Shown here: in pieces, positions 1,586-49,278 of the stretch | Numbering within the stretch: position 1 is the stretch's first letter | How the letters are laid out: each line of letters begins with the position of its first letter | Source of the DNA: a virus | IMG/VR virus record: IMGVR_UViG_3300020154_000003 | Location: 124,001-188,000 of that record | DNA length: 64,000 nt | Direction: 5' to 3' (one strand) | The notes under the pieces: model-generated | Told to the model about the DNA's origin: nothing | Databases searched by the model: none | What the model saw: the letters and a program-made list of their open reading frames with translations, nothing else | Translations under genes and position numbers: made by a program

Positions 1586-1658
1586 GAGAGTATGGCTCAG
1601 TGGTTAGAGCAAGGACTTCTAAACTCCTAGGTCGTGGGTTCGAATCCCACTACTCTCT
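1586..1658 (+). tRNA. amber-suppressor tRNA (anticodon CUA)
   Basis: Acceptor GAGAGTA/TACTCTC, D stem GCTC/GAGC, T stem GTGGG/CCCAC, T loop TTCGAAT and a 5-nt variable loop are all standard. By position the anticodon stem is AGGAC/CTCCT (C31-C39 mismatch) and the loop TTCTAAA gives CUA at 1619-1621, with U33 and A37 in place. Shifting the frame to UCU would break the stem further. The charging amino acid cannot be told from sequence. It is flanked by two genes with in-frame TAG. Confidence 0.75.
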
Positions 1659-1677
1659 CTCAATAAAATAAAAAGTT

Positions 1678-36948: not shown

Positions 36949-36980
36949 GTATATTAACGGCAATACTTAATTAAGGTTGC
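36949..36980 (-). promoter_or_regulatory. phage promoter, cassette class
   Basis: GCAACCTT (36973-36980), 13 nt, CGTTAATATAC. No gene follows; it drives the candidate RNA a1. Confidence 0.65.
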
Positions 36981-38312: not shown

Positions 38313-38345
38313 GTATATTAACGGGCAAACCTTAATTAAGGTTAC
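38313..38345 (-). promoter_or_regulatory. phage promoter, cassette class
   Basis: GTAACCTT (38338-38345), 14 nt with AATTAAGG, CGTTAATATAC. Drives candidate RNA a2. Confidence 0.65.
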
Positions 38346-39700: not shown

Positions 39701-39732
39701 GTAACCTTTGTGAATAGTTCACGTTAATATAC
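39701..39732 (+). promoter_or_regulatory. phage promoter, cassette class, plus strand
   Basis: GTAACCTT, 13 nt with the palindrome GTGAATAGTTCAC, CGTTAATATAC. Drives candidate small RNA s1. Confidence 0.65.
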
Positions 39733-39734
39733 AT

Positions 39735-39813
39735 ACGAACGCTGACAAGCTAGTAGGAGAGCCGAAAAGAAGGAAAAGGAGAGAACGGTTTCTGCAGCCA
39801 TCCGTTCTTTTTT
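39735..39813 (+). ncRNA. candidate small RNA s1 (about 79 nt)
   Basis: Promoter upstream, no start codon with a usable frame, and a terminator (AGAACGG/CCGTTCT plus T-run) at 39781-39813. ACATACGAACGC, AGTAGGAGAGCCGAAAA and AACGGTT..TGCAG recur in s2 (47184) and s3 (48288), which points to a conserved RNA. Flanked by minus-strand genes. Confidence 0.6.
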
Positions 39814-39830
39814 AAAAAAAAGAGAAACAA

Positions 39831-39853
39831 AAAAAGGGGATTATTCTCCCCTT
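39831..39853 (-). terminator. terminator hairpin
   Basis: AAGGGGA/TCCCCTT stem with a T-run on the minus strand; it overlaps the end of the gene at 39841. Confidence 0.6.
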
Positions 39854-39966
39854 GCTTCTTTGTCAAGTTGTTCTTTCAGGTCTTGTTCGTGCTGTTTTTC
39901 AGCCTCGATGTCCAAAAGTTCCTCAACTTGCTGCTCGATAATAAAATCCGGGATTTCGTCTTCCAT
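39841..39966 (-). CDS. small acidic protein (41 aa)
   Basis: ATG at 39966; a single charged helix (IIEQQVEELLDIEAEKQHEQ). Co-transcribed with the gene at 39973. Confidence 0.5.
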   Translation of the reverse strand: MEDEIPDFIIEQQVEELLDIEAEKQHEQDLKEQLDKEARGE

Positions 39967-39972
39967 TGCTTT

Positions 39973-40251
39973 TTATTTAAGTTGTGGGTATCTCCATAGA
40001 GTATCTTTCACCGTGCGGTTGTTAACTATGACTTTCGTTTCATCCATGATGCAGGAAAGTTCACAGTTCCCGAAGTAGGATGTTTGAGCGTTTTTCTTTG
40101 CTTGTTTCAAAGAATTGCCCCAACCTTCCCGGACTGAATAACCTGATTGTTTCAGGCCATTTTTTTCGCAAAGTACCCTTTCCATTGCATCAGCTAAAAA
40201 GAATTCGACCAATAGAAAGTAGCAGGCGTTTCGTGTTGTTGTGTGTCTCAT
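39973..40251 (-). CDS. hypothetical protein (92 aa)
   Basis: FLADAMERVLCEKNGLKQSG and NSLKQAKKNAQTSYFGN indicate a helical protein; no family is recognised. Confidence 0.6.
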   Translation of the reverse strand: MRHTTTRNACYFLLVEFFLADAMERVLCEKNGLKQSGYSVREGWGNSLKQAKKNAQTSYFGNCELSCIMDETKVIVNNRTVKDTLWRYPQLK

Positions 40252-40253
40252 GA

Positions 40254-40285
40254 GTATATTAACGGGGATTGTTAATTAAGGTTGC
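40254..40285 (-). promoter_or_regulatory. phage promoter, cassette class
   Basis: GCAACCTT (40278-40285), 13 nt with TTAATTAAC core, CGTTAATATAC. Faces 39973 and 39841. Confidence 0.65.
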
Positions 40286-40307
40286 GTGAAAAGAAAAAAT
40301 ATTTTTT

Positions 40308-40340
40308 GTAACCTTTGTTGCATTGTTCCCGTTAACAATG
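40308..40340 (+). promoter_or_regulatory. phage promoter, cassette class, plus strand
   Basis: GTAACCTT (40308-40315), 14 nt, CGTTAACAATG. Faces the gene at 40358; divergent from the copy at 40254. Confidence 0.55.
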
Positions 40341-40357
40341 CCAAACAACGAAAAACT

Positions 40358-40573
40358 ATGAAATTTTATGGCTATGTTCCCACAAAAGAGGGGAAAGAAC
40401 CTTTAGGGACTGAAGGGCGCACAATGTTTGAACTTGAAACAGTTCCGGGCGCAATTCGAAAGATGAGACGGTATGCCAGTACTGTGAATTCTCCTAAACT
40501 TTCCGCTCCATCATTTAAGCTATTCAGCTATTCTAATTTTTACGATCAATCAACTTTTACTGAAATTATTTAA
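40358..40573 (+). CDS. hypothetical protein (71 aa)
   Basis: I chose the ATG at 40358, 18 nt after the promoter. Small basic product (KFYGYVPTKEGKEPLGTEGR). A lone plus-strand gene in a minus-strand block. Confidence 0.6.
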   Translation: MKFYGYVPTKEGKEPLGTEGRTMFELETVPGAIRKMRRYASTVNSPKLSAPSFKLFSYSNFYDQSTFTEII

Positions 40574-40576
40574 AAG

Positions 40577-40616
40577 GAAAGGGACTATTTTTTAGTCCTT
40601 TTTAGTCCCTTTTTTT
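40577..40616. terminator. bidirectional terminator
   Basis: AAAGGGACT/AGTCCCTTT with an alternative inner pairing and T-runs on both strands, between convergent genes 40358 and 40592. Confidence 0.75.
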
Positions 40617-41017
40617 GCCTTTACCCTTGCGTAATTTCCGCTACTCTTATAGTATGTTCCCACATACGTTAGGCCATTCACTGCCTTTATTGTGACTGCC
40701 TGTCGCTTGTCACCAAAGTTTGATCGCCATTCCCTGCCAAGTACCACTACTCCTAATTTGTCGCCTGTCCAAGTTGTGGCGTATGTCATCGGAGTTCCTT
40801 CAGTGATATACAGGAAATAATTCTCAGGCTTATCGTGCATGAATTCGTAGCACTCAACCAGACTGCGAAGATCGTTTGTAACAATGTCCGCATGAGGGAA
40901 TGTCGCACAGATTTCAGCAGGGATGCCATTGGTCTTGTGCAATGTACGGTACTCTAAAGATGCTGCATCGTATTCAGCGATTTTCATCTTGTAGATTGCG
41001 TAATGTTCAGCGTTCAT
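40592..41017 (-). CDS. hypothetical protein (141 aa)
   Basis: Helical N-terminal half, then beta-rich with GDKLGVVVLGREWRSNFGDK and a basic tail (ARVKAKKGTKK). No family is recognised. Confidence 0.6.
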   Translation of the reverse strand: MNAEHYAIYKMKIAEYDAASLEYRTLHKTNGIPAEICATFPHADIVTNDLRSLVECYEFMHDKPENYFLYITEGTPMTYATTWTGDKLGVVVLGREWRSNFGDKRQAVTIKAVNGLTYVGTYYKSSGNYARVKAKKGTKKD

Positions 41018-41039
41018 ATCGTGTTTGTTTTGTTGTTAA

Positions 41040-41071
41040 GTATATTAACGGACAATGTACGTAAAGGTTAC
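41040..41071 (-). promoter_or_regulatory. phage promoter, cassette class, ACAATGTAC spacer
   Basis: GTAACCTT (41064-41071), 13 nt spanning ACAATGTAC, CGTTAATATAC. Faces the gene at 40592. Confidence 0.65.
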
Positions 41072-41089
41072 ATAAAATGTTATATTATT

Positions 41090-41200
41090 TTAGGACAATG
41101 TTCACCGTGCCAGTACTGGTATAGGACAATGTACGTGCTGGTTAATTAAGGATAGGACAATGTACGCTGGCAGGGCATGAGGGAAGGACAATGTACATAA
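41090..41200. repeat. cluster of GGACAATGTAC repeats and a CCAGTACTGG site
   Basis: GGACAATGT at 41093, and ACAATGTAC at 41126, 41157 and 41188 are spaced about 31 bp, three helical turns, with CCAGTACTGG at 41110 and TTAATTAAG at 41142. No gene. The phasing suggests cooperative protein binding. Confidence 0.55.
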
Positions 41201-41203
41201 AAT

Positions 41204-41233
41204 AAAAAAAGGGGGTTAACAACTCCCCCTTTT
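41204..41233 (-). terminator. Rho-independent terminator
   Basis: GGGGG/CCCCC stem with a T7 run on the minus strand, after the gene at 41260. Confidence 0.7.
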
Positions 41234-41259
41234 GAACACAAAACAACAAAACAACAATG

Positions 41260-41898
41260 CTAATTATTATGACCCCATTCACCGTCCCAATTCGGATTGA
41301 TGTGGGAGTTCTTTTTATCTGCGATCATTCGGTCGATGAAAAGTTTCTGTCCGGGATTCAATCCCTTGATGTCAACGCGACCGTTTTTAAATGCTTTCAC
41401 TGAAATCTTTTGAACTAGTTCACCTTTCTCATCCAGAATGTGAATATCCTTCAGGTCGTTACCTGCTGCCCGGAATTCTTTTGCAATGTCAGCAGCGATG
41501 GTAAAATCCGGGTCTTGTTTCTTCAGGATCACAAAGCGAAGGAAACCAAACAGGTTTGTATCCGCATAGTGAATGTCTGAGATGGTATAATGGTCGCCAG
41601 ACTTTCTGAAGTAATAGTGCCAAAACAGGCTGTTATTGTTCGCATACGCGAGAAACAGATTTTTGTTTCCATCGTAATTTTTCTTCAGCCACTGGTCGAA
41701 CCTGTCAGCATTCCACTGAAAAGATTTCGTAAAATCGAACAGGGAGCGACCAAAGAACCTGCTTTCCCTCGGATAATATCCGATATACGTGCTCACTTTG
41801 TTTTCTGTGATTGCTTTCACAGTATCCATCAGGGCATCCTCATCCAATAGATCAAGATTATCGGAGATGTACTTGAGTCTTTTCTGAATTGTATCCAT
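41260..41898 (-). CDS. hypothetical protein (212 aa)
   Basis: Mixed alpha/beta protein; a beta-hairpin near the end (VQKISVKAFKNGRVDIKGL) and a charged, His/Asn-rich tail. No family is recognised. Confidence 0.6.
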   Translation of the reverse strand: MDTIQKRLKYISDNLDLLDEDALMDTVKAITENKVSTYIGYYPRESRFFGRSLFDFTKSFQWNADRFDQWLKKNYDGNKNLFLAYANNNSLFWHYYFRKSGDHYTISDIHYADTNLFGFLRFVILKKQDPDFTIAADIAKEFRAAGNDLKDIHILDEKGELVQKISVKAFKNGRVDIKGLNPGQKLFIDRMIADKKNSHINPNWDGEWGHNN

Positions 41899-41921
41899 TT
41901 TCTTTAGTTGTTTGTTGTTAC

Positions 41922-41953
41922 TACGTTTAACGGAAACAGTTTGAAAAGGTTAC
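41922..41953 (-). promoter_or_regulatory. phage promoter, cassette class
   Basis: GTAACCTT (41946-41953), 13 nt, CGTTAAACG-type box. Faces the gene at 41260. Confidence 0.55.
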
Positions 41954-41954
41954 A

Positions 41955-42293
41955 TTATTCTTCAGTTATTTGCCCCAAAAGTTCAACCAAGTCAGCAGCC
42001 GTGAATAAATTTCTTCCAGTACCTTCCAGATCATAGCTGGAATTGTATGCAAAATCATCTTCTTCAGCATCTTCAAAATCCATGTTCCCTTCATTTTCAG
42101 TTGCCAGTACCTCCACAATTCCCTTATCGCTTACCCATGCACCAACGATTGACACGTTCTCATCTTTCTCAGCAGCGAAGGGATTATCAATCAGGATTTT
42201 CCCTAATTGTTTTACCTGCTTTATAATAGCTTCGCGGGCCTGATCTTCAATCCCCTGAAGTTGTTCGAGTAATACTATTGATAGCTTATCCAT
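41955..42293 (-). CDS. hypothetical acidic protein (112 aa)
   Basis: I chose the ATG at 42293. Acidic alpha/beta product with MDFEDAEEDDFAYNSSYDLE. Follows 42298 by 4 bp, so same transcript. Confidence 0.6.
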   Translation of the reverse strand: MDKLSIVLLEQLQGIEDQAREAIIKQVKQLGKILIDNPFAAEKDENVSIVGAWVSDKGIVEVLATENEGNMDFEDAEEDDFAYNSSYDLEGTGRNLFTAADLVELLGQITEE

Positions 42294-42297
42294 CGGA

Positions 42298-42579
42298 TTA
42301 AAGATTTTTGTCTGAAACAATTTTTTGTGCTTCTTTGAGACTCATTTTCGGTTGCTCATCTTCCCCTGAGAGGTTGAATGCTTCTTCTTCAGTCACAATT
42401 GCTTTTTGTACTGCCGTATCCTGAATGTGGTCAATGAGATTGATGATTCCTTCCAGCGTATCCCATTCAGGTTTGGTGATTGTCTTCTTTGCCTGAAGGT
42501 TAACCAGTACTGATTTTTGTGCTTTCAGTAGGGTGAAGTCCAGTTTCATTAGAACTTCGAATGCGGGTGCTGTTGCCAT
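42298..42579 (-). CDS. hypothetical protein (93 aa)
   Basis: Helical protein (EVLMKLDFTLLKAQKSVLVN). No family is recognised. Confidence 0.6.
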   Translation of the reverse strand: MATAPAFEVLMKLDFTLLKAQKSVLVNLQAKKTITKPEWDTLEGIINLIDHIQDTAVQKAIVTEEEAFNLSGEDEQPKMSLKEAQKIVSDKNL

Positions 42580-42603
42580 TTTCTTTTGTTGTTTGTTTTG
42601 TAT

Positions 42604-42636
42604 GTATACTAACGGCTGCTATCCGCAAAAGGTTAC
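42604..42636 (-). promoter_or_regulatory. phage promoter, cassette class, GATAGCAGC spacer
   Basis: GTAACCTT (42629-42636), 14 nt with GCGGATAGCAGC, CGTTAGTATAC. Faces 42298 and 41955. Confidence 0.65.
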
Positions 42637-43331
42637 GCATTCACAAAAGATTTTACGGATTTGTTGTATTGTTTGAATTCTAAATTAAACTTGTCGAATT
42701 CTTTAACGTTCAAACCTCCGAGACCATTTGTGAATAAGTCCACATCTTTCACATAGAAAGATTTGTGTTTGAAATACCACACAACAAAATCGTATGCTTC
42801 TTTCAAAGTAGGGAAACTCATTCCAGCGTACCCACCGATTCCCATTCTGCCAGCTTCGAAACTGAATTGTATGGTTCTGTTCGGGTTCTGCCAGACTTCA
42901 TAAAAGGTTTTTTCCTTTGGAAGTCTTTCCCTACTCCATACGGGTTCGAAAGTTCCCGTTATGGTGAGGTTGTATTTTTTAATTAAGATGCTCTTTCTGA
43001 ATTCAGGGTATTTCATCCCTACTTCACAACGTTGGTTGCCTTTCATGTATTGTTCTGCGAACTCAATTGCAATGCCCAACATAATCGTATCGTGCATACG
43101 CGACCAATTCCAGCTACTAGCCAATTCATTTTCGCATTGAGGCGTTTCAGGAATGCCGTGAACGGCAGCGTGAGCGTATTTGTGAGGGATGCCTGCGAAT
43201 TCCAAAATTTCAATTGCAGCTTCATTCGCTCCGGGAATTTCAATGTATCTTTCCCGGTTTTTGATGGTGGAGAAAGTGATGCCCAACTTTTTGCATACTT
43301 CGAGCACCTTGTTTGTTAATTCCGTTTTCAT
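42633..43331 (-). CDS. hypothetical protein (232 aa)
   Basis: No recognised family. SFEAGRMGIGGYAGMSFPTL suggests a strand-turn-strand; the stop codon lies inside the -35 of the next cassette. Confidence 0.6.
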   Translation of the reverse strand: MKTELTNKVLEVCKKLGITFSTIKNRERYIEIPGANEAAIEILEFAGIPHKYAHAAVHGIPETPQCENELASSWNWSRMHDTIMLGIAIEFAEQYMKGNQRCEVGMKYPEFRKSILIKKYNLTITGTFEPVWSRERLPKEKTFYEVWQNPNRTIQFSFEAGRMGIGGYAGMSFPTLKEAYDFVVWYFKHKSFYVKDVDLFTNGLGGLNVKEFDKFNLEFKQYNKSVKSFVNA

Positions 43332-43351
43332 CGCTTTGTTGTTTTGTTGTT

Positions 43352-43385
43352 GCTATGTTTAACGGCTGCTATCCGCAAAGGTTAC
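43352..43385 (-). promoter_or_regulatory. phage promoter, cassette class, GATAGCAGC spacer
   Basis: GTAACCTT (43378-43385), 13 nt with GCGGATAGCAG, CGTTAAACATAG. Faces 42633 and lies entirely within the end of the upstream gene 43359. Confidence 0.6.
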
Positions 43386-43664
43386 ATTATTTCCGACTAA
43401 ATTTGAAAAAGGATAAAAATAATCGAATTGAACCTCAACAAAATCGGAAGTGAATGCCATAAAGGCCATCAGTTTATTTTTGTAATACACTGAAATTACC
43501 CAACCATTTGTCGAGCGAATTTCAGAACTTACCCTAGGATCAATGTTTTTCACATTCTGAATATCCAGCGTGTAAACACTATGTTTCACCTTTCCTTCGG
43601 TGAGTTTTACGTTACCTCTTTTGAGAGACTGGAAAATCTTTTCGACACGTTTGGGAGTAGTCAT
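43359..43664 (-). CDS. hypothetical protein (101 aa)
   Basis: I chose the ATG at 43664 (TTPKRVEKIFQSLKR). Its last codons (NNVTFADSSR) are encoded by the promoter of the next gene, a notable double use. Confidence 0.6.
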   Translation of the reverse strand: MTTPKRVEKIFQSLKRGNVKLTEGKVKHSVYTLDIQNVKNIDPRVSSEIRSTNGWVISVYYKNKLMAFMAFTSDFVEVQFDYFYPFSNLVGNNVTFADSSR

Positions 43665-43687
43665 TTTGTGTGTTTGTTGTGTTGTAC

Positions 43688-43719
43688 GTATATTAACGAA
43701 AAAACCCTGCAAAGGTTGC
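43688..43719 (-). promoter_or_regulatory. phage promoter, cassette class
   Basis: GCAACCTT (43712-43719), 13 nt, CGTTAATATAC. Faces 43359. Confidence 0.65.
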
Positions 43720-43747
43720 AAGGTTTTCGTTTTTTTCTTTTCACCTT

Positions 43748-44017
43748 TTAGCTTATCGCATGGTGAGTCACATTGCCATCGGGAGTCATAAGGGCATAGT
43801 CAATTTTGATTTGATTCCTACCCTTTGCCGTTTGTGGCCAAATTTCAGCACTTACTACCGAGTTCCCTTTTTCTTTCTGGTACTGGTTCTCTGCTGCGAT
43901 AATTCCTTTCACTTCTTTGAAAGTCATTGCACCGTAACAGGTCTGAGTGCTCAACACTTTTCCACCGTTGGAGAGGTTGATGTTTACTGCGAAGTTACAA
44001 GTTACTGAGCGTCCCAT
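43748..44017 (-). CDS. hypothetical protein (89 aa)
   Basis: Small beta-alpha-beta product (SVTCNFAVNINLSNGGKVLS, FKEVKGIIAAENQYQ). No family is recognised. Confidence 0.6.
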   Translation of the reverse strand: MGRSVTCNFAVNINLSNGGKVLSTQTCYGAMTFKEVKGIIAAENQYQKEKGNSVVSAEIWPQTAKGRNQIKIDYALMTPDGNVTHHAIS

Positions 44018-44040
44018 ATCGTTTTGTTTTGTTGTTAATT

Positions 44041-44070
44041 AGTTAAACGTGAACAAAACGAAAAGGTTAC
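44041..44070 (-). promoter_or_regulatory. phage promoter, cassette class
   Basis: GTAACCTT (44063-44070), 13 nt, CGTTTAACT. Faces 43748. Confidence 0.6.
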
Positions 44071-44357
44071 GATAATCCGTGAATAAAATTGAATAATTCT
44101 TCCACCTGCAATTCCAAAATTATTTGTAAGGATAGTTCTGAGTCCTCATTCACGAAATCGCCTTGCCTATCTGTAATTGCATAGAAAGGATTATTTATAT
44201 CCTTAATTACACTTCCAAGTAGTACGTGCTTTTCGTATGGAATGTATTTTGTGCTGGCATAGAACTTTGTGACCAGTACTGGCAGATGTGCTGCTACCCG
44301 CTTTTTCCAGTCCTTAAACTTTTCGCGGGCATATCGCTTATATCTTGCGGTTGCCAT
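44067..44357 (-). CDS. hypothetical protein (96 aa)
   Basis: Basic N-terminus (ATARYKRYAREKFKDWKKR). Its ATG overlaps the stop of 44357. A CCAGTACTGG site (44273) lies inside the coding region (LPVLVTK part). Confidence 0.6.
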   Translation of the reverse strand: MATARYKRYAREKFKDWKKRVAAHLPVLVTKFYASTKYIPYEKHVLLGSVIKDINNPFYAITDRQGDFVNEDSELSLQIILELQVEELFNFIHGLS

Positions 44358-44656
44358 TACCAGAAAAGTGATTTTGGCAGCTTTGCTTTTTCTCTAATCC
44401 AGTCCATTACTTGTTCAGAATAGTAATGCGTAGTCAACTCATTCAGAAATTGCGTGAGTGTTCTTTGCAGTTGTGGGTCACCGATAGCCACAGTTTCGCG
44501 TGTGAATTCTTTTGCGTTTGACTGGTTGGAAGACTTTCCATAGCCTGTTGAAGTATCCCAATCTTTACCGATAACGGTGATGGTCTTCTTTGTAATTTCA
44601 ACGGTGATAACACCACCTTTGCAGTACTCACCGATTTTGAATGTTTTCGTTGCCAT
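44357..44656 (-). CDS. hypothetical protein (99 aa)
   Basis: Beta-rich start (TFKIGEYCKGGVITVEITKK), helical end. No family is recognised. Confidence 0.6.
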   Translation of the reverse strand: MATKTFKIGEYCKGGVITVEITKKTITVIGKDWDTSTGYGKSSNQSNAKEFTRETVAIGDPQLQRTLTQFLNELTTHYYSEQVMDWIREKAKLPKSLFW

Positions 44657-44679
44657 TTAGTTTGTTGTTTGTGTTATAC

Positions 44680-44712
44680 TATCTTTTAACGGCTGCTATG
44701 TGAAAAGGTTAC
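44680..44712 (-). promoter_or_regulatory. phage promoter, cassette class, ATAGCAGC spacer
   Basis: GTAACCTT (44705-44712), 13 nt with CATAGCAG, CGTTAAAAG. Faces 44357 and 44067. Confidence 0.6.
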
Positions 44713-45035
44713 ATTCTTTTCAATTTATTTAGCAAACGCATATGTTCATCGATGTATCCTTTCTTTTTCCATTTGATAGGATCGTAACAGAATTGAGGAT
44801 CGAATACCCTTCCCGATTCCCGCTCGAATTCGTTAATTAAGGATAGCAGGCGTTTGACCGTTGGATTGCTTTTTGGAATTTCTTCACCCGTTTTGAGACT
44901 GACAAATTCAACTCCATAGCAGTTAACTACCCATTGGTACTTATCACATACTCGAACTATTTCACCAAGTATTGTATCTTCGATGTGAGTAGCAAGTTTG
45001 TGAAGTTTGTCGTATTCTTTTCGTAGCGTTCTCAT
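44709..45035 (-). CDS. hypothetical protein (108 aa)
   Basis: Helical, with IVRVCDKYQWVVNCYGVEFV in the middle. No family is recognised. Confidence 0.6.
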   Translation of the reverse strand: MRTLRKEYDKLHKLATHIEDTILGEIVRVCDKYQWVVNCYGVEFVSLKTGEEIPKSNPTVKRLLSLINEFERESGRVFDPQFCYDPIKWKKKGYIDEHMRLLNKLKRM

Positions 45036-45037
45036 AA

Positions 45038-45070
45038 TGTTAATTAACGAACCAGTACTGGAAAGGTTAC
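45038..45070 (-). promoter_or_regulatory. phage promoter, cassette class, CCAGTACTGG spacer
   Basis: GTAACCTT (45063-45070), 13 nt that contain the full CCAGTACTGG palindrome (45052-45061), CGTTAATTAAC. Faces 44709. It ties the palindrome to promoter control. Confidence 0.65.
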
Positions 45071-45080
45071 ACTATATAAC

Positions 45081-45108
45081 AAAAAAAAGGGAGAAACTTT
45101 CCCCCTTT
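45081..45108 (-). terminator. terminator hairpin
   Basis: AAAGGG/CCCTTT stem with a T8 run on the minus strand, after the gene at 45107. Confidence 0.65.
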
Positions 45109-45304
45109 AAACTAACCTGTATTTGTAGACAAGTTCTTTCGTGCTTTCCTTTTGCAGGGCTTCTGCGATAGCTTTGCAATAGTCCCGGAAAAACATTTGT
45201 CCACTGCTGAGTCTTTTCTTTTTACTCTTTCGGGCAATTTCATTTACCAAGGCATTGATTTGATGCGTTGGAAGATTCTGAATGTTTTCGACCAAATTTT
45301 CCAT
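45107..45304 (-). CDS. hypothetical protein (65 aa)
   Basis: Helical and basic (EIARKSKKKRLSSGQMFFRD). Five bases after 45309's stop; same transcript. Confidence 0.6.
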   Translation of the reverse strand: MENLVENIQNLPTHQINALVNEIARKSKKKRLSSGQMFFRDYCKAIAEALQKESTKELVYKYRLV

Positions 45305-45308
45305 AGCT

Positions 45309-45665
45309 TTATGATTTGTTTTCGTTTCTTTTATTTTTTACGAATTCAGCCCAATACTTGTCTCTGGCCACATGTTCTTTGATGTCCTTACCAGTCATCC
45401 GGTGTGCCAAGGGTGCATCCCATGCGTCACCTATCGGAAGGTGAATAAGTTTCACAGGTTTGGTACTGAAAACTACGTAGGCTGCTTTTCCATCAGCGTG
45501 AGGGATGTAGATCGTTTCCCCTGCGAGTTCATCTTTGCTGTTTTTCTTTGCCCATTCGCGAATGCTATTCACGTAAGCCTCTTCTGCTTCTCTTGATGCT
45601 TTCAAGTTGCGAAAGTCGAATTTCGGTAGTTCGAATTCTTTTGGAGCGTTATAAACTTTTCCCAT
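45309..45665 (-). CDS. hypothetical protein (118 aa)
   Basis: Charged helical ends and a beta middle (AAYVVFSTKPVKLIHLPIGD). No family is recognised. Confidence 0.6.
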   Translation of the reverse strand: MGKVYNAPKEFELPKFDFRNLKASREAEEAYVNSIREWAKKNSKDELAGETIYIPHADGKAAYVVFSTKPVKLIHLPIGDAWDAPLAHRMTGKDIKEHVARDKYWAEFVKNKRNENKS

Positions 45666-45689
45666 TGTTTTGTTAGTTTGTTTTGTGTT

Positions 45690-45723
45690 ACTACATTTAA
45701 CGGGAAAGATTTGGTAAGGTTAC
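45690..45723 (-). promoter_or_regulatory. phage promoter, cassette class
   Basis: GTAACCTT (45716-45723), 13 nt, CGTTAAATG. Faces 45309 and 45107. Confidence 0.6.
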
Positions 45724-45929
45724 GTAAAATGTAAATTATTTTCTTTTTTGTATTTCTCCCATTCCGCTATGACTCTATGTTCAGACTCAAACGGATAGCG
45801 GGCGCAAAGTGTGCTCATGAGGTCGCTGGCAAAATAGGCAGCGTTATAGTTTTGCTGAACAGTATACTTTTGGCGTTCATTGTGAATTAACCATTTGGCG
45901 AATTCCAGTAGTTCATTTTTCTTTTCCAT
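45720..45929 (-). CDS. hypothetical protein (69 aa)
   Basis: Helical (LEFAKWLIHNERQKYTVQQN). Overlaps the gene at 45913. Confidence 0.55.
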   Translation of the reverse strand: MEKKNELLEFAKWLIHNERQKYTVQQNYNAAYFASDLMSTLCARYPFESEHRVIAEWEKYKKENNLHFT

Positions 45930-46224
45930 CTACGTTAAATGTTTTTCTTGCAACGTTAATTAACTGTTCATCCGTCAATCGTTCTAACCTATGGAATTCA
46001 TTCGAGGTTGCTAAACTTGCATGGATACCACAGGAACATCTTACAAAAAATGCAAGTCCTTTAAGATCATTTCTTACCTGTTCAGGCTTTCTTGTACCAT
46101 AGGCAAGCGATTCCAATTGTATCATGAAGAACCTTTTGATATGACCCTCAATTAACTCCGAAGGAATTTTTTGGTCGTCAGCAATTGGCCTGCCCGGACA
46201 AGATGTATCGTATATTGGATACAT
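45913..46224 (-). CDS. hypothetical protein (103 aa)
   Basis: Cys pairs FVRCSCGIHA could bind metal. Its ATG overlaps the previous stop. No family is recognised. Confidence 0.55.
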   Translation of the reverse strand: MYPIYDTSCPGRPIADDQKIPSELIEGHIKRFFMIQLESLAYGTRKPEQVRNDLKGLAFFVRCSCGIHASLATSNEFHRLERLTDEQLINVARKTFNVDGKEK

Positions 46225-46418
46225 TATTCTTTATCTTTGATTGATACCTCAGTTCTTTTATTCCATGTTCTGGAATATCTGAAACCTTTTGCAGATTCCA
46301 CAACCAGATCAACTTTCCCGGAAGGAGTGCTGATACCTGCTGAGGGAGCGACAACCACTTTCACATTTGTGGGAGTAAGGATGTCACCTACACTTAAATC
46401 TTTTACCAGTTTTTTCAC
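46224..46418 (-). CDS. hypothetical protein (64 aa)
   Basis: Beta-rich small protein (LSVGDILTPTNVKVVVAPSA). No family is recognised. Confidence 0.55.
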   Translation of the reverse strand: MKKLVKDLSVGDILTPTNVKVVVAPSAGISTPSGKVDLVVESAKGFRYSRTWNKRTEVSIKDKE

Positions 46419-46421
46419 GGC

Positions 46422-46604
46422 TCAATTGTTTTCTGATTTCTGAAAATAAACAAACTCTTTTATTTCATCCTCGAAGTCACGTTTCACGTCATGAAAGTTA
46501 GGATATTTGCAAGCATAGTATGCTTGAACTTCCTTTTGCTTTTCCTCGGATGAGGCACGATACCATTCCTTTGCATCACTCCAAGATATTGTTTCTGTTT
46601 CCAT
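46422..46604 (-). CDS. hypothetical protein (60 aa)
   Basis: ATG at 46604. Acidic, with an EWYRASSEEKQKEVQAYYA helix. Heads a four-gene overlapping run; a promoter was not clearly seen in front of it. Confidence 0.55.
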   Translation of the reverse strand: METETISWSDAKEWYRASSEEKQKEVQAYYACKYPNFHDVKRDFEDEIKEFVYFQKSENN

Positions 46605-46667
46605 ACCCATATAAACGAAAAAAAGTACTGTAGGGTTACAGTACTTTTCACATTTTTCAAACTTTTT

Positions 46668-47063
46668 TTAATCTTCGACTGTTACGTCATCCAGTTTCAG
46701 GAAGTCATAGGCATCGGAACCACGTTGGTGTGCTGCTTTTTCTGACCTTTCCTCTAAGCCTTGTATTTGAGCAATTATCCTTGGATACCCGAAACGAGGT
46801 ACGGTAATGTGACCGAACGCTCTACCTTCATCCACAAAGGCATCCGCATAGATGATTCCCTTTTCAGAACCGATCATATAATACTTGATATTCGGGCTGC
46901 TGAAATGGAGTTTCAGTTTTACCGTTTTGCCATTGACAATGCCTGACACTGAAAGATCATCATGGTCAATCAGTACCCGTATATCAATGCCAGTTGCAAT
47001 TGTTGCCAGTACTGACAGAATGAGGGCGATGTCATGCTTTTGATGTGATTGAACAATTTCCAT
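46668..47063 (-). CDS. hypothetical protein (131 aa)
   Basis: I chose the ATG at 47063 because the region upstream is a cassette promoter. SHQKHDIALILSVLATIATG is followed by a beta-rich body. No family is recognised. Confidence 0.6.
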   Translation of the reverse strand: MEIVQSHQKHDIALILSVLATIATGIDIRVLIDHDDLSVSGIVNGKTVKLKLHFSSPNIKYYMIGSEKGIIYADAFVDEGRAFGHITVPRFGYPRIIAQIQGLEERSEKAAHQRGSDAYDFLKLDDVTVED

Positions 47064-47086
47064 AGTTTTTTGTTGTTTGGTGATAT

Positions 47087-47118
47087 GAGTATAAACGGCA
47101 CTATTCACAAAAGGTTGC
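47087..47118 (-). promoter_or_regulatory. phage promoter, cassette class
   Basis: GCAACCTT (47111-47118), 13 nt, CGTTTATACTC. Faces 46668. Confidence 0.6.
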
Positions 47119-47149
47119 CAGAAATTTAAAATATATTTTCTTGAATATT

Positions 47150-47181
47150 GTAACCTTTTCAAACGGCATCCGTTAATATAC
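47150..47181 (+). promoter_or_regulatory. phage promoter, cassette class, plus strand
   Basis: GTAACCTT (47150-47157), 13 nt, CGTTAATATAC. Drives candidate small RNA s2. Confidence 0.65.
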
Positions 47182-47183
47182 AT

Positions 47184-47270
47184 ACGAACGCTAACAAAGC
47201 AAGTAGGAGAGGGGAAACCAACCAAATTAGAGGACGGTTATTGCAGGGGTCTGTCTGTTTACTATTGATG
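47184..47270 (+). ncRNA. candidate small RNA s2
   Basis: After the promoter, ACATACGAACGC, AAGTAGGAGAG and ACGGTTATTGCAGGGGTCTG match s1 and especially s3. No reading frame. The 3' end is uncertain; GGACGG and CTGTCT can pair weakly. Confidence 0.55.
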
Positions 47271-47284
47271 GCAAATATAGGAGG

Positions 47285-47845
47285 TTACAATTCGAACTCC
47301 AAAGTTTCTCCGTTCATTCTGATTTCAACCAACTTGTCAACGCAAAACTGTCTGAACGTATTGGTTTTCAAATTTTTGCGAATGATGTTTTTCGCGATTG
47401 TCAAAGGTGCGCTATTCACTTCCCGGTATCTTACAGGAACCAGCACTTCTTTTGAGATACGATTTCCGTAAACGTAAACTCTGCCAGTTTCATTGTGAAC
47501 GCGAACATTCGGGAAAACTTGGGTATACGTACCCTGCTGCGCCCGCGACTGATTTGATTCATTCTCAATGGCATACAAAAGGGCTATCCGGGCTTGCTCC
47601 GCATATTGAGCCACAGAACCAAATTCGAGACCAGCAATATTGCTAGGGTCGCTAAGGAATTTTCTGTCAGCTTCTTTTGCGTTTGCATAGGAGGCACCAA
47701 CGTTTACCACGTAGTTTGAAATTTCACCCTGATTGTTGCAGTAGTTTTTTACCGATACAAAGGTAGGGGTTTTTTGACCTGCCAAATTCGCATACAATTT
47801 GAGTTGAGCGATAACTTCGGAAGGTGATAAGAGGACAAGTATCAT
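47285..47845 (-). CDS. hypothetical protein (186 aa)
   Basis: Helical first half (EVIAQLKLYANLAGQ...), then VFPNVRVHNETGRVYVYGN and a helical end. No family is recognised. Confidence 0.6.
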   Translation of the reverse strand: MILVLLSPSEVIAQLKLYANLAGQKTPTFVSVKNYCNNQGEISNYVVNVGASYANAKEADRKFLSDPSNIAGLEFGSVAQYAEQARIALLYAIENESNQSRAQQGTYTQVFPNVRVHNETGRVYVYGNRISKEVLVPVRYREVNSAPLTIAKNIIRKNLKTNTFRQFCVDKLVEIRMNGETLEFEL

Positions 47846-47870
47846 GGTTCGTTTTGTGTTTGGTTATATG

Positions 47871-47900
47871 TATTATACGGCTGCTTCAATAAAAGGTTGC
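47871..47900 (-). promoter_or_regulatory. phage promoter, cassette class with CGTATAAT
   Basis: GCAACCTT (47893-47900), 13 nt with GAAGCAGC, CGTATAAT. Faces 47285. Confidence 0.65.
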
Positions 47901-47923
47901 GATAATATAGGGTTATTTTTCAA

Positions 47924-48157
47924 TTAATCCATATATCCATGCTCAATTGAAAAGTCACTTTCCTTTGCACCCTCATTCTCAATTAAGTGTGCCTTAACGC
48001 GATCAAAGTAGGCGTAGTTAGTCATATTACCCTGAACAATTCCCTCAGTAATTGTCCTTCCATTTTGTCTTAAGCGCATACCGATGCAGCAAGTTCCTTG
48101 GTCACCCATTTCAGATATGACCTCCTTTGCGATTTGTTTCAGTGTTATTGCGTCCAT
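47924..48157 (-). CDS. hypothetical protein (77 aa)
   Basis: AKEVISEMGDQGTCCIGMRL includes a CC pair. No family is recognised. Confidence 0.6.
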   Translation of the reverse strand: MDAITLKQIAKEVISEMGDQGTCCIGMRLRQNGRTITEGIVQGNMTNYAYFDRVKAHLIENEGAKESDFSIEHGYMD

Positions 48158-48180
48158 GTTTTTTTGTGTTTGTTAATATA

Positions 48181-48211
48181 GAGTTAAACGGCCATGCCCG
48201 CAAAAGGTTGC
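48181..48211 (-). promoter_or_regulatory. phage promoter, cassette class
   Basis: GCAACCTT (48204-48211), 13 nt with GGGCATGGC, CGTTTAACTC. Faces 47924. Confidence 0.6.
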
Positions 48212-48254
48212 GTAATTAAGGATAAAAAAAGTTAAATTATTTTCACAAATAATG

Positions 48255-48286
48255 TAACCTTTGTGAATAGTTCCCGTTAATATACA
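48255..48286 (+). promoter_or_regulatory. phage promoter, cassette class, plus strand
   Basis: GTAACCTT (48255-48262), 13 nt with GTGAATAGTTCC, CGTTAATATAC. Nearly identical to the s1 promoter. Drives s3. Confidence 0.65.
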
Positions 48287-48287
48287 T

Positions 48288-48355
48288 ACGAATCAAGTAG
48301 GAGAGCCGAAAAAAAGGAAATTAGAAAACGGTTATTGCAGGGGTCTGTCTTGTTT
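48288..48355 (+). ncRNA. candidate small RNA s3
   Basis: CATACGAA, CAAGTAGGAGAGCCGAAAA and ACGGTTATTGCAGGGGTCTG align with s1 and s2. No reading frame. It ends before CCAGTACTGG (48364). Confidence 0.58.
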
Positions 48356-48474: not shown

Positions 48475-49278
48475 ATGCGACACGACTTTAATTTTTCCTA
48501 CATTGGCGGTGTTAACCTGACTGCGAAAATTGCACACGGTAAAGAGTACGGTATTGATACTTATACTCTATATTTTGCTCCTTATAAATTGAGCGGGCAA
48601 AACGTGTGCGCAAAGGCAACAAAGGAATGTATAATGGGTTGCCTTAACACGTCCGGGCGGGTTAAAATGGACAAAAAGAACATTATTGTCAATGCCCGCA
48701 CACAAAGGACTATTGCCTTTTACGAACAAAGGGAAAAATTTATGACTTTAATGATTCATGAAATTTCCCTTGCAAAAAAGCGTTCGGAAAAAAAGGGGAC
48801 TATCTTTGCAGTCCGTTTAAACGGTACTTCCGACCTGTCCCCGGAAATTTTCAAAGCGTTCGGGCAAAATATTCTCGAATTGTTCCCGGATGTTCAGTTT
48901 TACGATTACACAAAGGTACTGAACCGCAAAAAGTTGGTTGAAAAATACCCAAATTACGACCTGACTTTTTCTTATACGGGCTACAATTGGTCTGAATGCC
49001 AGCAAGCGTTATCGGACAATGTTCGGGTCGCTGTAGTGTTTGACGTGAAAAGAGGTAAAGCCCTGCCTAAAACTTTCAACGGGTACAAAGTTATTGACGG
49101 TGATTTGAATGATTACCGTCCAATGGATGAAAAGAATGTGATTGTAGGCTTACGGTGGAAAGATATTGCAAACCGTGAAAATAATACCGCGATCAAAAAT
49201 AGTCCCTTCGTGGTAAAGGTAACGACTGAAAATGTCGTTACCACTTCGGACAATGTACATGAAACACAAACAGTTTAA
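48475..49278 (+). CDS. GP88-family phage protein
   Basis: I chose the ATG at 48475, after the promoter. FNFSYIGGVNLTAKIAHGK, the Cys-rich NVCAKATKECIMGCLNTSGR, RTIAFYEQREKF, VRLNGTSDLSPE and FYDYTKVLNR follow the GP88 family, known from mycobacteriophages and many others. Function unknown; the Cys cluster suggests a metal centre. Confidence 0.75.
   Translation: MRHDFNFSYIGGVNLTAKIAHGKEYGIDTYTLYFAPYKLSGQNVCAKATKECIMGCLNTSGRVKMDKKNIIVNARTQRTIAFYEQREKFMTLMIHEISLAKKRSEKKGTIFAVRLNGTSDLSPEIFKAFGQNILELFPDVQFYDYTKVLNRKKLVEKYPNYDLTFSYTGYNWSECQQALSDNVRVAVVFDVKRGKALPKTFNGYKVIDGDLNDYRPMDEKNVIVGLRWKDIANRENNTAIKNSPFVVKVTTENVVTTSDNVHETQTV

Follow-up and report, generated by a model that had tools for sequence, protein, structure and literature searches.

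A candidate family of promoter-driven small non-coding RNAs shared by two related jumbo phages

Three short plus-strand units of a jumbo phage genome (s1, s2 and s3) are proposed here to be copies of a gene for a trans-acting non-coding RNA of ~70-80 nt, present together with its promoter as a cassette in two related jumbo phages, a reading to which, judging from sequence, we assign a probability of about 0.5. The analyzed window (64,000 bases) covers bases 124001-188000 of the virus record IMGVR_UViG_3300020154_000003 (G000; 366,038 bases), and the second phage, IMGVR_UViG_3300032157_000001 (G001; 371,504 bases), carries four further copies (r1-r4). An original prediction made for this DNA had named three plus-strand units, all of which were found in place, each behind a promoter as perfect as it had been described. 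An RNA of 69-79 nt would be compatible with the sequence. The individual features, in window coordinates unless a genome is given, are as follows.

39702..39732, plus strand: s1 promoter, TAACCTTTGTGAATAGTTCACGTTAATATAC; strict pattern match and maximal score
39733..39813, plus strand: predicted s1 RNA (s1 unit, 39733-39811) with 5' stem, AGTAGGAGAG core (39752-39761), CC/GG helix, purine linker and terminator
39782..39813, plus strand: s1 intrinsic terminator with a T run after the stem AGAACGG/CCGTTCT; from sequence and fold
47151..47181, plus strand: s2 promoter; strict pattern match and maximal score
47182..47260, plus strand: predicted s2 RNA, core 47202-47211; helix swapped to GG/CC; positional ortholog of r2 in G001
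48255..48285, plus strand: s3 promoter, spacer almost identical to the s1 spacer; strict pattern match and maximal score
48286..48354, plus strand: predicted s3 RNA, core 48296-48305; a clean deletion has removed the inner 5' stem; r4 of G001 is its positional ortholog
G001:263028-263104: r4, found with the RNA-part model (E = 9e-9)

Directly upstream of each of s1-s3 lies the arrangement GTAACCTTT-N13-CGTTAATATAC, and all three promoters reach the maximum for their class (18.3 + 13.8) under a two-box matrix built from 15 window promoters, these three among them. Many genes on both strands have a promoter of this class, and their ATG follows it at a distance of 1-4 nt or of 17-32 nt; behind the s1-s3 promoters, no ATG frame of at least 35 codons begins within 86-189 nt. 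G000 has six matches to the strict form of the promoter (TAACCTT-N14-18-GTTAATATAC), namely ahead of s1-s3, of a non-coding unit at 38323 and of two genes, and G001 has three, those ahead of r1-r3 (control patterns gave 0). The r4 promoter is of the ordinary G001 gene type (CGTATTAATAC), and its spacer is almost the same as that of the gene behind r4.

The ATG stands just 1-4 nt past the -10 region in many genes (e.g., 38785, 40264, 38194, 36428 (-)), so that their mRNAs are probably leaderless; in other genes, 17-32 nt of A-rich leader precede the ATG. The box-to-box spacers often contain a palindrome (TTAATTAA, GTACAATGTAC or CCAGTACTGG, e.g., at 38323, 41050, 45049 and 51313; GTGAA-TAG-TTCAC in the s1 promoter), as if operators of different regulators had been swapped into one promoter frame. 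Copies of the palindrome CCAGTACTGG number 26 in G000, 44 in G001 and 21 in the window, where 0 are expected, and they concentrate in the part of the genome that also contains the RNAs (densest at 48-58 kb of the window; 155-185 kb in G000; 252-274 kb in G001). A second type of promoter-driven unit, likewise devoid of a long frame, is located on the minus strand at 38313-38344 (RNA to ~38254) and 36949-36980 (RNA to ~36862); both units contain CGAG-N-TACTCCAAC, after which come a T run and CCAGTACTGG, and they possibly represent a second small RNA family, of which no copies were found in G001. Elsewhere in the window, a tRNA at 1586-1659 (plus strand; anticodon CTA), called tRNA-Pyl by ARAGORN, is more likely a phage amber suppressor.

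The conservation of the units reaches past their promoters, as is indicated by the promoter-free detection of the G001 copies, including r4, and by the orthology of s2 with r2 and of s3 with r4. Within the 64-kb window, AGTAGGAGAG occurs exactly three times, once per unit, and in all seven copies the invariant core is GAGAG, inside AAGUAGGAGAG, with variable 3' hairpins. A model built from the post-promoter sequence alone recovered the six copies already known and added the seventh, r4, at E = 9e-9, which constitutes an independent test since r4 had been left out of model building. The orthologs s2 and r2 share 27 of 31 post-promoter bases and 24 of 49 farther downstream, beyond which similarity is lost. 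Conservation confined to the promoter, which the original prediction had named among the outcomes that would speak against it, was thus not observed. In addition, s3 looks mosaic (promoter spacer of s1, 3' end of s2) and r1 and r4 have a 3' module in common, which suggests recombination between copies.

The family is known from these two genomes among 2.9 million viral contigs scanned. Both BLAST with s3 and the promoter-free RNA model identified exactly three copies, s1-s3, in the whole 366-kb record of G000, and the pattern scans singled out G001 as the only relative with RNA copies, r1-r3 being detected by these scans and r4 by the promoter-free model. The terminases of the two phages are 72% identical; more distant terminase relatives (52%) have neither the promoter nor the RNA. 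Other candidate relatives (L005, L006, L008, L009, L010, L023, L024, L056-L066, L074 and L075) were rejected as chance matches, mostly in coding sequence and none with the phage promoter.

Coding potential was tested because the ACG at the start of s1-s3 occupies the position of the ATG in leaderless genes and because r4 has an ATG followed by 17 codons. For the latter reason we retain, as an unlikely alternative, a leaderless mini-gene that gives, or once gave, a short basic peptide, its copies being started by non-AUG codons or decaying: the ACG lies exactly at the leaderless ATG position, 2 nt after TATAC, six copies start with ACG or ACC while r4 keeps the ATG (MNARKASKRGDENQRRG, 17 codons), and a common frame runs through s2, r1, r2 and r4, with r1 and r4 ending at the same TGA. 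However, only one of the seven copies has the ATG, s1, s3 and r3 change frame on the way from the start to the core, the C-termini differ, and over the 36 gap-free columns common to all seven copies the differences are spread evenly over the three codon positions (104, 99 and 111; P = 0.36). A conserved coding peptide was rejected on account of this lack of periodicity and the broken frame, and decay of a former gene would leave both the top-scoring promoters and the compensatory changes in the stems unexplained.

Three proposed helices are common to the copies. The outer 5' stem is UAC/GUA, replaced by UUA/UAA in r3 and UAU/GUA in r4; the inner 5' stem is GCU/AGC, replaced by GCA/UGC in r2, CAGU/ACUG in r3, GCU/GGC in r4 and GC/GC in r1; and the CC/GG mini-helix becomes GG/CC in s2 and r4. 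In s3 the inner stem is lost through a 10-base deletion that spares the outer stem. In alignment A5, 86.5% of the cells pair with a covariation score of 0.304, neither value being reached in 500 shuffles, figures which overstate the structure since it was derived from the same sequences and some pairs (r3) were registered by hand; slid versions of the structure give at most 35% pairing. At 2-4 bp the helices are short, the folding energies of single sequences are not better than those of shuffled ones, and the automatic RNAalifold consensus retains just the 2-bp CC/GG helix. A transcript starting at the A of ACG instead of 1-2 nt upstream would have an outer stem shorter by one pair. Read from the alignment, stem covariation together with frame-breaking indels makes the conservation RNA-like. 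As for the 3' ends, s1 possesses the clear terminator that had been anticipated for it, the only one among the family RNAs, the 3' hairpin of the others being weaker or different: s2 and s3 have no canonical terminator, only a weak hairpin with a GUUU tail, and r2 is followed by a strong bidirectional terminator ~100 nt further on.

Genomic context provides a further line of argument. In G001, r4 is located between the orthologs of genes 47285-47845 and 48475-49278, which is the exact position of s3 in G000, and r2, like s2, adjoins the ortholog of gene 47285-47845; the remaining copies are not syntenic. The units had been described as lying between minus-strand genes, a statement that requires correction for s3, which is found at a point of divergence in front of a plus-strand GP88-like gene. 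Action in trans is favored because no gene of the same orientation comes directly after s1, s2 or r2 and because the genes next to s3, r3 and r4 have promoters of their own. We consider it fairly unlikely that the element works in cis as a structured 5' leader which, through leader control or put/nut-like antitermination, influences the attached transcript or RNA polymerase so as to let transcription reach downstream genes. The location of the element at the extreme 5' end of the predicted transcript in 7/7 copies and of s3, r1, r3 and r4 some 110-190 nt upstream of co-directional genes would agree with such a leader, against which stand not only the self-promoted genes but also the terminators of s1 and r2, the antisense course of s2 and r2 into the next gene, and neighbors that are unconserved save for s2/r2 and s3/r4. 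An element acting at the DNA level, either an operator or a replication origin with a purine-rich transcript as R-loop primer, appears improbable: strong promoters without a frame, a purine-rich RNA, the divergent transcription at s3 and the abundance of operator-like palindromes in the region could all be accommodated, but GC skew does not turn at the copies, the three to four copies per genome occupy mostly different places, and compensatory changes in stems with internal loops indicate an RNA.

Overall, the units combine their own promoter and the lack of a reading frame with conservation between related phages, as expected of phage-encoded small non-coding RNAs. The earlier description of conserved, independently transcribed units without a frame appears well founded in view of the promoters, the synteny in two phages, the frame-breaking indels, the flat codon positions and the stem covariation. 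In the trans-acting reading, a strong phage-type promoter would yield an RNA whose start near ACGAA is supported by sequence, with a small 5' stem-loop (UAC/GUA, GCU/AGC), the exposed purine-rich AAGUAGGAGAG, the CC/GG mini-helix and a 3' hairpin. It would be produced from a region of host-takeover genes and may act in trans, stabilized by its 5' and 3' hairpins, with the exposed GAGAG core as the binding site for an RNA-binding protein or for a host RNA rich in pyrimidines, as an antisense regulator or a sponge; several paralogs might serve to increase the dose or to diversify the 3' specificity.

The suggested role as regulatory RNAs or RNA decoys is plausible. No base-pairing targets were revealed at phage gene starts, a search that had been recommended: apart from the strand antisense to the units themselves, pairing at the gene starts of the window did not exceed that with shuffled cores. 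Pairing with the second unit type (38323, 36959) gave nothing conserved, the duplex energies being without a shuffle control. A CsrA/Rsm sponge was rejected since GGA lies between helices rather than in loops and neither G000 nor G001 encodes CsrA, a link to a phage-encoded bS21 since bS21 is absent from the phages, and no Rfam 15 family scored above its gathering cut-off.

A ribosome-directed RNA is suggested by a richness in Shine-Dalgarno (SD)-like 4-mers (33 vs. 13.5 by chance in s1-s3 and r1-r3, whose relatedness means that these are not six independent tests) in combination with SD-less genes (an SD at 6/107 window gene starts, not beyond chance). A Bacteroidota host is inferred from two features: SD use is absent, as it is in Bacteroidota, and the named phages with the best terminase matches are Flavobacterium phages (26%). 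In Flavobacteria, bS21, bS18 and bS6 occlude the anti-SD (PMC8710568). The multi-copy RNA might then offer SD-like purine motifs to Bacteroidota-type host ribosomes, with their normally occluded anti-SD, and capture or reprogram 30S subunits during infection, a scenario that we rate as very improbable. The general trans-acting reading is kept in preference to it because GAGAG is invariant while AGGAG is not universal (it is lost in r3 and in the r4 core), and because the phages lack bS21 and no mRNA target was seen among the phage genes of the window.

Among known systems, the put and nut antitermination RNAs of lambdoid phages are short hairpins at the 5' end of transcripts. The likeness of the s/r RNAs to them is one of position only, and, unlike put and nut, several of the present copies have terminators (s1, r2) or antisense genes next to them. 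RNA anti-CRISPRs (Racrs) are likewise short, promoter-driven phage RNAs without a frame, but they are solitary mimics of CRISPR repeats (PMC10651486). The rpsU leader of Flavobacteria also displays a purine-rich SD-like motif where genes do not use SD (PMC8710568), whereas the s/r RNAs have no rpsU or other ribosomal gene attached, and it is GAGAG, not a full SD, that stays invariant in them.

Small RNAs of virulent phages (reviewed in PMC12197685) are few and mostly without an assigned function, and several paralogs with two syntenic pairs and covarying helices offer a concrete object for their study, in jumbo phages that place their best promoters ahead of non-coding units. The closest precedents are sRNA1 and sRNA2 of PAK_P3 and the band C/D RNAs of T4, ~100-nt intergenic small RNAs of lytic phages with unknown function, one of the PAK_P3 RNAs having been proposed to bind the ribosome (PMC4933390). 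The RNAs proposed here are similarly small and intergenic; the PAK_P3 RNAs were seen by RNA-seq, while s1-s3 and r1-r4 are predictions from sequence. Given these precedents and the lack of an Rfam match, the kind of RNA is already known and the family is new in the collections searched, differing from those of PAK_P3 and T4 in being multi-copy, with its own promoter, a core common to its members and further copies, some of them syntenic, in another phage.
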